64,000 nt of DNA from the NCBI RefSeq assembly GCF_020404405.1, contig NZ_JAIZDA010000012.1:1-64000 (forward strand). The letters run 5' to 3'. Position 1 is the first letter of the stretch. Each line of letters opens with the position of its first letter. The notes beneath the pieces are model-generated. The model saw only the letters and a program-made list of their open reading frames with translations. It was not told where the DNA came from and ran no database searches. The stretch is from Novosphingobium sp. FKTRR1 (lineage in GTDB: Bacteria; Pseudomonadota; Alphaproteobacteria; Sphingomonadales; Sphingomonadaceae). Positions 42,171-44,601 of the stretch are shown here, piece by piece. Both the position numbers and the translations under genes were made by a program.

Positions 42171-42943
42171 TGGCGGGCGAGGCACACGACAGCGCGGCGA
42201 TACTGGCATCGGCGCGCCAATCGCTGACGCACCAGCGCGCGGGCGGACGGCGCCGGGGGTCGATCGGGCGGCGCTCGGCCGAGCTGAAGCGGCGGCATCT
42301 GGCGCGCAAGGCGGCGCGGGTGGCGCTGGCCATCGGCGCGGTCATGCTGGCAACGATGATCGCCGGGCTGGTGATCGGCGGCATCGGCGTGGTCGGCCTG
42401 TTCGCCGCCGTGCTGGCGGGCCTTGCCGTGCTGGCGTTCTTCAGCACGTTTCCCCGGCTCAAAGTGCCCGATCTGCGCGCGCTCAACAGCGGCGATGTGC
42501 GCACGATGGTGGGCCGCACCGAGCTGTGGCTCGAAGCGCAGCGCCCCGCGCTGCCCGCGCCGGCAGTGCGGCTGGTCGACCGGATCGGCGTGCAATTGGA
42601 TAGCCTTGGCGTGCAATTGGAAGGGCTCGACCCCGCCGAGCCTGCCGTGGCCGAAGTGCGCAAGCTGGTGGGCGAACACTTGCCCGGCATGGTCGAAAGC
42701 TATCGCCGCATCCCCGCGCACTTGCGCAACGAACAGCGCGGCGGGCGCAGCGCCGACCAGCAACTGGCCGATGCGCTGGGCAAAGTCAGCGGCGAGATCG
42801 ACGAGATTTCGCGCCAACTGGCCGCCGGTGACCTGGACGCGCTGGCGGTGCGTGGCCGCTATCTTGACTACAAGTACGGCGATGCGCTTGGGGAGGCGCC
42901 GCAATTGCAGTCCCCGCAGCTATCGCCCCCGAAGGAAACCTGA
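42170..42943 (+). CDS. Membrane protein partnered with TelA (XpaC-like)
   Basis: A 257-residue protein. An Arg-rich N-terminus (RAGGRRRGSIGRRSAELKRRHL) precedes two adjacent membrane helices (about 48-92), then a soluble helical region (about 100-240) with DRIGVQLDSLGVQLEGLDP and GKVSGEIDEISRQLAAGDLDALAVRGRYLDYKYGD. The layout and its position directly after telA recall XpaC-type (5-bromo-4-chloroindolyl phosphate hydrolysis) proteins. Assignment is by context and general shape. Start and stop both overlap neighbours by one base (TGATG). Confidence 0.65.
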   Translation: MAGEAHDSAAILASARQSLTHQRAGGRRRGSIGRRSAELKRRHLARKAARVALAIGAVMLATMIAGLVIGGIGVVGLFAAVLAGLAVLAFFSTFPRLKVPDLRALNSGDVRTMVGRTELWLEAQRPALPAPAVRLVDRIGVQLDSLGVQLEGLDPAEPAVAEVRKLVGEHLPGMVESYRRIPAHLRNEQRGGRSADQQLADALGKVSGEIDEISRQLAAGDLDALAVRGRYLDYKYGDALGEAPQLQSPQLSPPKET

Positions 42944-43248
42944 TGCGCGTCGCCATCCCCCACACCCTCGGCAAGGATGAAGTTCGCCGCCGCCTGAAAG
43001 CGCGCATGGGCGACGCCCCGGACAAGGCGCGCGAATCGCTGGGCGCGCTGGCCAGCGTCGACTTGCGCTGGGAAACCGACGACCGCCTCGCCATGGACGT
43101 CTCAGCCATGGGCTTTTCCATCCCCTGCTCGCTGGACATCGAGGACGCCGCGCTGGTGTTCGACGTCGAAATCCCCGCAGGCCTCGGCTTCGCCCGCGGC
43201 ATGATCGAAGGCACGATCCGCGAAAAGGGCGCTAAGTTGCTGGGGTGA
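42943..43248 (+). CDS. Polyhydroxyalkanoic acid system family protein
   Basis: A 101-residue protein resembling the small PHA granule-region family (VAIPHTLGKDEVRRRLKARM and an alternating beta pattern ending ARGMIEGTIREKGAKLLG). The family is found near polyhydroxyalkanoate genes; its biochemical role is not established. No phaC or phasin gene is in the window. It is translationally coupled to the membrane protein before it (TGATG) and closes the telA operon. Confidence 0.7.
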   Translation: MRVAIPHTLGKDEVRRRLKARMGDAPDKARESLGALASVDLRWETDDRLAMDVSAMGFSIPCSLDIEDAALVFDVEIPAGLGFARGMIEGTIREKGAKLLG

Positions 43249-43557: not shown

Positions 43558-43663
43558 CGAACCCCCTCCCCCGACCCCTCCCCACTGGGAGGGGGGAACG
43601 GTGCGGGGGCGAGTGGTGATCTGACTCCCCTCCCCGGTGGGGAGGGGTGGGGGAGGGGGTTCG
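43558..43663. repeat. Nested GC-rich inverted repeat (intergenic palindromic element)
   Basis: The outer arms, 43558-43585 and 43637-43663, are reverse complements except for one extra G in the left arm. Each arm's inner end forms its own hairpin: CCTCCC-CACT-GGGAGG on the left and CCCCTCCCC-GGT-GGGGAGGGG on the right. This CCCTCCCC/GGGGAGGG element type is a common dispersed intergenic repeat in sphingomonads and relatives. Confidence 0.75.
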
Positions 43664-43718
43664 GCGCCAGACGGCCTCGCCCGACAGCAGCCGCACAGCC
43701 AATCTGCCACGACCCACC

Positions 43719-43747
43719 TTGACAAAACGAACCATATAGGATAACTC
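43719..43747 (+). promoter_or_regulatory. Possible sigma-70 promoter for the structured RNA
   Basis: A consensus TTGACA at 43719-43724 is followed by AT-rich CATATAGGATAAC. The -10 is imperfect: GATAAC at 15-base spacing or TAACTC at 17. Its position just ahead of the stem-rich region favours a role as its promoter. Confidence 0.4.
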
Positions 43748-43751
43748 CCCG

Positions 43752-44019
43752 CGCAAGGATCGAGAGGCGGGGCCAAGGCCGGTCTTGTTCTCACGGCTCT
43801 TTCGGTCAGGGGTCATAGCCTGATCGGCGCGACCGGGGTGGGTTGCTGCGGGTCTTGTGTGGGCGTTTCTCCCCCCTCAAGTCCCAGGCCGGGCAATCTG
43901 CTGCCAGACCCGCGCGGGGTGGACGGGCGAGCCATGTGCTGCGCCCGGGAAGGACCGGAACCCTTTGGTTCCAATGCCTTCCGCCGGACCGGCCGTTTGC
44001 GAGCCGCCGCCGGTCTTTT
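43752..44019 (+). ncRNA. Candidate structured non-coding RNA, family unknown
   Basis: An orphan transcription unit is suggested. A TTGACA element lies upstream and a chain of stems follows. Stem 43779-43784 with 43831-43836 encloses a TCAGG/CCTGA hairpin. Stem 43848-43855 (GCGGGTCT) pairs with 43906-43913. Stem 43924-43929 pairs with 43942-43947 and directly abuts stem 43948-43953 (GGAAGG) with 43977-43982, which encloses a perfect GGAACC-CTTT-GGTTCC. The terminator GACCGGC/GCCGGTC (43987-43993 and 44009-44015) is followed by TTTT. Conserved marks of tmRNA, RNase P RNA and 4.5S RNA were not seen. 6S RNA is possible but unproven. Exact ends are guesses. Confidence 0.42.
43987..44019 (+). terminator. 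Rho-independent terminator of the structured RNA
   Basis: A perfect 7-bp stem GACCGGC/GCCGGTC with a 15-base loop and TTTT immediately after, plus two possible G-U pairs at the base. No protein gene precedes it on this strand within 700 bases. Confidence 0.65.
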
Positions 44020-44188
44020 CAGCGCTGCCCACGCGCGGTTTGATCACACCAAAGGCCGATCCGGGCCAGCGCGCGTTGGCGGGGCCCGGACATTCGCACA
44101 CACACGGCAACGCACGCTCCTGCCCGCAGCGCCATTGCTGGCGCCGCTCCGGTCGCGTGATCCTATCTGGTTATTCTTCGCACATGGT

Positions 44189-44210
44189 CCGGGGTAGCGC
44201 CCGGATTTTT
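44189..44210 (+). terminator. Second terminator-like hairpin
   Basis: CCGGG (44189-44193), a 6-base loop, CCCGG (44200-44204), then A and five T. With the strong stem TCCGGGCC/GGCCCGGA (44060-44067 and 44083-44090) upstream, it may mark a longer form of the structured RNA or a separate short transcript. Confidence 0.45.
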
Positions 44211-44220
44211 CGCGTGTCCG

Positions 44221-44266
44221 CCTTCCGCGTGCAACGCCTTCCGCGCGCAATGCCTTCCGCGCTCAG
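44221..44266. repeat. 16-bp tandem repeat after the HNH gene
   Basis: CCTTCCGCG(T/C)GCAA(C/T)G occurs at 44221 and 44237, with a third partial copy at 44253 that enters the stop region of the HNH gene (44263). Confidence 0.65.
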
Positions 44267-44601
44267 CGGCCCTTCTTGGCGATGCTGGCGTTGAAGTCGG
44301 GGTCTTTGTTGGCCACCCAGTCAACGAACTTGCGCACCGCCGGGTTGGCCAGCAGGCCTTCCACGTCCATGCCATAGCGCTGCAATTCGGAATTGGTGAA
44401 GTTGGCGATCAGCGTGTTCTGGCAGATCGGGTGCATCGGCACCGTGTCGCGCCCGCCCCGGCTCTTGGGGATGGGGTGGTGCCAGACCACCGTCTTGCCC
44501 GTCGGACGGCCGCACAGCCAGCACGGCACCACCGGCGCAGGCGCGTCCTCGTCGGTGTCGGGAAGGTCATAGGGGCCGTGCTTGGGGTGCTTGCGCGCCA
44601 T
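44263..44601 (-). CDS. HNH endonuclease-family protein
   Basis: A 112-residue protein with a zinc-binding Cys27-x2-Cys30, His41-His42 (VVWHHPIPKSRGG) and a second pair near His57/Cys60 (MHPICQNTL), the beta-beta-alpha metal HNH arrangement. A helical C-terminal tail (about 65-112) follows. HNH proteins nick or cut DNA, but many small chromosomal ones are uncharacterised. It stands alone, with the 1-kb non-coding region downstream. Confidence 0.78.
   Translation of the reverse strand: MARKHPKHGPYDLPDTDEDAPAPVVPCWLCGRPTGKTVVWHHPIPKSRGGRDTVPMHPICQNTLIANFTNSELQRYGMDVEGLLANPAVRKFVDWVANKDPDFNASIAKKGR

Follow-up and report, generated by a model that had tools for sequence, protein, structure and literature searches.

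A multicopy structured RNA gene family of Novosphingobium and other Sphingomonadales, with a shared promoter element

A protein-free region of Novosphingobium sp. FKTRR1 DNA appears to hold one gene from a multicopy family of non-coding RNAs in the Sphingomonadales. The gene extends from 43718 to 44210 of the window (the whole stretch of 64,000 nucleotides that we analyzed), and our evidence supports its identification as an undescribed structured RNA gene. An earlier note on this DNA had proposed an undescribed structured RNA that is not a riboswitch leader, and both points held; its picture of a lone orphan with an internal terminator did not hold. Beyond what that note had seen, the RNA is multicopy, occurs across the order, carries one shared promoter element and, to judge by its sequences, evolves in concert. 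The family combines up to dozens of promoter-driven copies per genome, a promoter element of their own and concerted evolution, which among bacterial RNAs we know together only from rRNA and tRNA genes.

The gene, its copies and their promoter

The gene lies between the end of the plus-strand telA operon at 43248 and a convergent HNH gene at 44263-44601, in the 1-kb gap that the earlier note had called protein-free, and we likewise found no credible protein gene there. ARAGORN detected tRNA-Trp alone in the window, and this tRNA was also the sole match in an Rfam search of the window. The TTGACA element seen before is present at 43719-43724. The RNA unit, earlier placed at 43752-44210, is real, but its true start lies upstream, at the promoter (43718-43746). 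Table 1 lists the parts of the unit.

Table 1. Parts of the RNA gene and its neighbors, in window positions
Feature	Position	Strand	Basis or remark
telA operon, last gene	42943-43248	+	upstream neighbor of the RNA unit
Whole RNA gene unit, promoter to 3′ hairpin, one family copy	43718-44210	+	similar units elsewhere in genome and genus
Promoter	43718-43746	+	logo of 176 sites; pattern searches with reversed control
Promoter -35, CTTGAC	43718-43723	+	followed by 17-nt spacer
Near-invariant spacer element AACCATATAGGATA (family AACCATATNGGTTA), proposed regulator site	43730-43743	+	12 of 14 genome sites are RNA promoters, control 0; ACC and GG invariant in 176 sites
-10-like ATAACT	43741-43746	+	family consensus TTATAY; weaker in window copy
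Predicted transcript, ends inferred	43753-44210	+	promoter position and 3′ hairpin
Hairpin just before P1, stem CGGTCAGG / CCTGATCG	43803-43826	+	window sequence
Long-range helix P1, 5′ strand CGCGACCGGGGTGG	43828-43841	+	inverted repeat I3; compensating changes across family
Variable-arm helix GGGCG..CGCCC	43924-43947	+	kept in C48 copy, one G-C to G-U change
Variable-arm hairpin	43948-43982	+	different perfect hairpin in C48 copy (alignment of window with C48)
Core hairpin GGACCGGC..GCCGGTC	43986-44015	+	variable stems around constant loop; core alignment and model
Invariant core loop GCGAGC	43999-44004	+	inside core hairpin 43986-44015
Second core hairpin TCCGG..CCGGA	44060-44090	+	base pair with a double change, U-A versus G-C
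CATTCGC, proposed pseudoknot partner of GCGAG loop	44091-44097	+	98.8% of cells pair, nearly invariant
Long-range helix P1, 3′ strand CCGCTCCGGTCGCG	44144-44157	+	inverted repeat I3; compensating changes across family
3′ terminator-like hairpin TCCGGG-GTAGCG-CCCGGA, then TTTTT (TCCGGGGTAGCGCCCGGATTTTT)	44188-44210	+	family-wide 3′ hairpin
HNH gene	44263-44601	-	convergent, downstream neighbor of the RNA unit

A search of the FKTRR1 genome with positions 43700-44230 returned ten matches, including a full-length copy on another contig (G000:C48, 86% identity); some of the matches are cut by contig ends, as repeats are. Using the promoter as a pattern, we found 12 places in this genome and none with a reversed control pattern. 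Each of the 12 sites consists of TTGACA-N5-AACCAWATNGG followed by GC-rich structured RNA, and several RNA subfamilies coexist among them. The supposed orphan small RNA is thus present at 12 or more dispersed places in the FKTRR1 genome, and further copies exist across the genus.

Within the genus, 54 genomes out of 195 carry the promoter when up to three mismatches are allowed (reversed control, none), with up to 38 places in a single genome. In the Sphingomonadales, 22 of 396 genomes match it with at most one mismatch, where the reversed control gives a single match. On these counts the family is widespread but patchy, and as it was not detected in most sphingomonads, it is not essential to the order. 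Exact matches, in a scan of species genomes, fell in 84 stretches from Novosphingobium, Altererythrobacter, Pelagerythrobacter, Croceibacterium, Porphyrobacter, Sphingobium, Sphingomonas, Polymorphobacter and metagenome-assembled genomes (MAGs); a few of these stretches, for example in Polymorphobacter and Sphingomonas kyeonggiensis, are without RNA signatures. The 3′ hairpin was discarded as a handle for order-wide searches, since outside a few genomes control matches were about as many as real ones.

At 87 distinct full-length sites in the genus, we looked for the core motif (GCGAGY, then CRYTCGC 45-125 nt downstream), which is present in 78, for the 3′ hairpin (60) and for an alternative 3′ end, ATCCAACA (20). 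All but one site (86/87) carry at least one of the family motifs. The corresponding rates in 492 random flanking pieces are 1.8% for the core, 1.2% for the 3′ hairpin and 0.2% for the alternative 3′ end. By this measure, the promoter sites mark RNA genes.

Every copy opens with CTTGAC-N17-TTATAY, and a logo of 176 promoters reads C-TTGACA-AAACG-AACCATATNGGTTATAYG. The family promoter is, in its letters, close to the alphaproteobacterial housekeeping consensus CTTGAC-N17-CTATAT (PMC2873474). The -10 element of the window copy is poorer, and this copy may be weakly transcribed. Within the spacer, which carries the near-invariant ACCATATNGG, ACC and GG are invariant in 176 of 176 sites, in a collection whose search pattern (2 mismatches allowed) favors conservation; the spacer is conserved far beyond the needs of sigma-factor binding. 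Allowing one mismatch, we found AACCATATNGGTTA at 14 sites in the FKTRR1 genome, 12 of them in RNA promoters (control, 0). Since the spacer is both conserved and nearly confined to these promoters, it suggests one DNA-binding regulator, shared by the whole family, that would bind there. The two remaining sites, each with one mismatch, are at G000:C61:1667-1680 (L305) and G000:C31:27230-27243 (L303), upstream of genes that we take, from their sequences, to encode a LuxR-type response regulator and a UDP-glucose dehydrogenase; these are candidate members of the regulon. At 44157-44172 of the window, GTGATCCTATCTGGTT is an inverted copy of the spacer element (14/16 positions) and may offer the putative regulator a second site. 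The relatives L058-L060 have similar second copies, and L107 a weak one, but the feature is not family-wide.

RNA copies adjoin clpB in several other genomes, in differing orientations, and in genome G439 the promoter lies upstream of clpB, for which reasons we considered a heat-shock (RpoH) promoter. We rejected it: groES and clpB promoters have a CCATAT-like -10 about 17 nt from the -35, unlike the RNA promoter. In G439 (L278, 1501-1650), the RNA promoter sits 130 nt upstream of the clpB start, with no room for the RNA, and upstream of a separate heat-shock-like promoter, CTTGTG..CCATAT; it is possibly the remnant of a lost copy.

Structure of the RNA

The earlier note had considered that a conserved reading frame might overlap the stems. 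We found no such frame among 21 close copies: ORFs vary from copy to copy, and the lengths of 1539 of the 1598 pairwise indels are not multiples of three. Judged by these indels and ORFs, the RNA family is non-coding.

In a single-sequence fold the stability of the region was only a little above that of shuffles (z -1.56; 7 of 100 shuffles as good), so stability alone is no proof of structure. Both helices that had been singled out, 43924-43947 and 43948-43982, exist and could be compared with the C48 copy. In the second, the outer stem GGAAGG/CCTTCC of the window becomes GGAAGT/ACTTCC in C48, and in place of the inner perfect hairpin stands an unrelated one, also perfect, TGAAATCAC/GTGATTTCA; together, these differences indicate that the helix is kept through compensating changes.

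For the long-range helix P1, we located each strand separately by similarity and tested 27 distinct strand combinations. In these, 93.4% of cells pair, compared to 88.2% (maximum 91.3%) with shuffled partners, and P1 positions 5 and 10 swap A-U/G-C and U-A/C-G. The core hairpin surrounds one loop with different stems, GACCGG/CCGGTC, CTTTGGGC/GCCCAAAG, ATGACCGA/TCGGTCAT and GGCAGC/GCTGCC; across the family the loop, GCGAGY, is invariant while the stem varies, and the observed mean pairing exceeded that of all 300 partner shuffles. The 3′ hairpin takes the forms CCGC/GCGG and CCGG/CCGG in other copies. We trained a covariance model of the core on 16 copies and applied it to 327 kb. All 12 matches up to an E value of 0.1 lay in family RNA genes, and these comprised two training copies and subfamilies outside the training set.

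An unbiased all-pairs covariation test with a tree-based null, on 27 aligned sequences, yielded no significant pair, and with RNAalifold, double changes in the 21 close copies were not above those of shuffles. Covariation is thus supported by the targeted tests of P1, the core hairpin and one arm, and not by the all-pairs test. From the compensating changes at these three places, we class the family as a structured non-coding RNA. GCGAG and YTCGC in the core could form a pseudoknot; they pair in 98.8% of cells but are nearly invariant, so the pseudoknot stays a proposal. The predicted RNA is 350-600 nt long and closed by P1, with a conserved core, variable peripheral hairpins and a terminator-like 3′ hairpin.

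Two hairpins had been read as intrinsic terminators. The one at 43987-44019 is in fact the core hairpin, conserved and with loop GCGAGC; the C48 copy lacks its T-run. The other, at 44189-44210, corresponds to the family 3′ hairpin and is conserved in position and shape, but a mechanical terminator scan did not list 44188-44210.

Shared loci and apparent exchange between copies

N. taihuense, N. jiangmenense, N. subterraneum and the genome G123 have copies at shared loci. In a tree of 19 shared-locus copies, sequences group by species: the species labels change 4 times, compared to a mean of 9.8 after shuffling, and none of 2000 shuffles came as low. For locus the tree carries no signal, with 15 changes against a shuffled 14.0. 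The distance between orthologues is 8.9%, which equals that between copies from different loci of different species; paralogues are 7.0% apart. As the copies group by species and not by locus, this is concerted evolution: on the evidence of the tree, the RNA is a multicopy gene that evolves in the mode of rRNA genes, with paralogues more alike than orthologues. At a flagellin locus, Pelagerythrobacter and FKTRR1 each carry a copy in the same place, between homologous flanks, and the two copies belong to different RNA subfamilies, each fairly uniform within its own genome. Copies also seem to recombine with one another: two copies of G123 have their flanks swapped in N. taihuense. At one shared locus, the unit has the opposite orientation; a reversal within one intergenic region leaves room for mobility.

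These loci bear on whether the RNA is a non-autonomous mobile or selfish element, that is, a structured repeat with its own promoter and terminator that is copied by a helper and does the host no service. We consider this rather unlikely. For most copies of G123 there is a counterpart at a shared locus in a sister species, in some cases with the same orientation and both flanks, and the flagellin locus is common to two genera, whereas the large and uneven copy number (0 to 38 between genomes of one genus), the patchy occurrence in the order, the reversed unit and the differing orientations beside clpB are what a selfish element would produce. No terminal inverted repeat of the kind found in MITEs is common to the copies: an imperfect repeat in the window copy is not family-wide, nor is the inverted operator copy at the 3′ end, which we therefore rejected as a terminal repeat. 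No recurrent mobile-element gene stood out beside the copies, whose neighbors were not annotated one by one, and plasmid and phage collections contained no DNA similar to the RNA unit. A single viral-contig match was dismissed as evidence of phage carriage, its RNA sequence being the same as a chromosomal copy of Novosphingobium sp. NDB2Meth1. Relatives do not preserve synteny around the window locus, which left no empty site to compare there.

Among 21 close copies of another subfamily, in which most of the RNA is about 95% identical, the hairpin immediately before P1 has a tip that differs in both length and sequence. This hypervariability would suit a family of antisense regulatory RNAs, in which a constant scaffold presents a different tip in each copy to an mRNA target of its own; some copies share one tip, however, and variable tips may be merely unconstrained, and we think such a family improbable.

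Relation to known RNAs and possible mode of action

When the RNA was searched with the 4227 families of Rfam 15, none scored above its gathering threshold, in the window or at 20 further loci, and in this respect "undescribed" was an apt word. Relaxed thresholds gave nothing bacterial in the interval and, there and at the further loci, only weak matches to eukaryotic or viral microRNA-type families and to one human sRNA. The marks of tmRNA and RNase P RNA had been sought in vain in the earlier note, and both genes do lie elsewhere in the genome, that for RNase P RNA (RF00010) at C92:97501-97934 and that for alpha tmRNA (RF01849) on C24. For 6S RNA (RF00013), the main known alternative named then, there was no match in the window, the interval or anywhere in the nearly complete genome, while controls including Caulobacter matched. 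We therefore set aside 6S RNA, tmRNA, RNase P RNA and the other Rfam families, none of whose models matches the unit. A divergent 6S RNA or other known housekeeping RNA that Rfam misses is highly improbable: the genome lacks any Rfam 6S match, so its 6S gene may be unrecognized or missing, but P1 closes a domain of several hairpins, unlike the one long interrupted ~180-nt hairpin of 6S, the RNA is multicopy and undetected in most sphingomonads, Rfam is negative even at relaxed thresholds, and RNase P RNA and tmRNA are accounted for. The genus may carry a 6S RNA too divergent for the Rfam model.

To the explanation that transcription of all copies is under one regulator, and that the RNA acts in trans, by dosage, through its conserved core, we give an even chance. 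One factor would bind ACCATATNGG inside the promoter and co-regulate all copies; when it permits, the copies would jointly yield a large dose of one RNA. The core would bind a partner shared by all copies, for which a protein or the ribosome is the likeliest candidate, and the RNA would work by abundance, as a scaffold or a sequestering RNA, with recombination between copies keeping the core uniform, as in rRNA genes. We favor this explanation because the RNA is multicopy and non-coding, with its own promoter, which matches the alphaproteobacterial housekeeping consensus, a shared spacer element and family motifs at 86 of 87 sites; because P1 and the core stems compensate, and the core model finds new subfamilies; and because copies evolve in concert, and the same locus in different genera holds different subfamilies. 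The all-pairs covariation, which was not significant and to which close copies add little, counts against it, as do the patchy occurrence in the order and the one opposite-orientation locus, which also fits mobility. That the RNA is abundant we infer from its promoter and copy number.

Large, intricate RNA loci of several hundred nucleotides that are independent of proteins, with functions un- or poorly known, include OLE, ROOL and GOLLD (Nature 2025, PMC12286853). The family described here has no Rfam match to any of them. For these RNAs, we know of no description of copy numbers that reach dozens in a genome, of a common promoter element or of concerted evolution. rRNA operons resemble the family in their many dispersed copies, housekeeping-type promoter, homogenization within genomes and recombination between copies; in contrast to them, the family, for which we found no sequence relation to rRNA, is patchy, fast evolving and missing from many related genomes. 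Qrr, LhrC and CsrB/RsmZ are multicopy trans-acting regulatory RNAs, shorter and with few copies (about 2-7). They too have several similar copies, and their common control and trans action by dosage are what we infer here, but the RNA of this family exceeds them in size and has a conserved core as well as a long-range helix that closes it. A comparative RNA survey lists mobile or repeat sequence candidates as a category (PMC11109978), and these also have many copies per genome and no constant orientation to their neighbors; its main text does not mention sphingomonads. Unlike those candidates, the copies compared here form a complete unit, from promoter to 3′ hairpin, at loci common to species.

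A literature search for such an RNA in sphingomonads, with a coverage outside which most subscription papers and preprints fall, found none. To our knowledge, no bacterial RNA besides rRNA and tRNA has this gene-dosage pattern, and we regard the family as new because of this pattern and because no described family matches. It may represent, though here we fall just short of even confidence, a gene-dosage RNA of a new class, additional to rRNA and tRNA. Its output would be set by many dispersed, concertedly evolving copies that one spacer-bound regulator switches together, and it would form an RNA-protein or RNA-only particle with a clade-specific role. Structured bacterial RNAs of similar size have often proved catalytic, architectural or broadly regulatory, and few are still unexplained. 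If expressed, the RNA would be a large, unrecognized transcriptional investment in Novosphingobium and its relatives, and strains in which one copy alone was detected lend themselves to deletion experiments.

The ends and surroundings of the units vary. In the shortest subfamily (MAG KLAP68; L140, L174, L181 and L190), the 3′ hairpin motif is only ~255 nt past the promoter. One subfamily ends in CAAATCCAACAGG and not in the 3′ hairpin, and in L015 (G019) that end stands three times in tandem. Upstream of the RNA gene in the window, at 43559-43664, there is a GC-rich inverted repeat, CCCCTCCCC..GGGGAGGGG, and similar repeats adjoin many copies.
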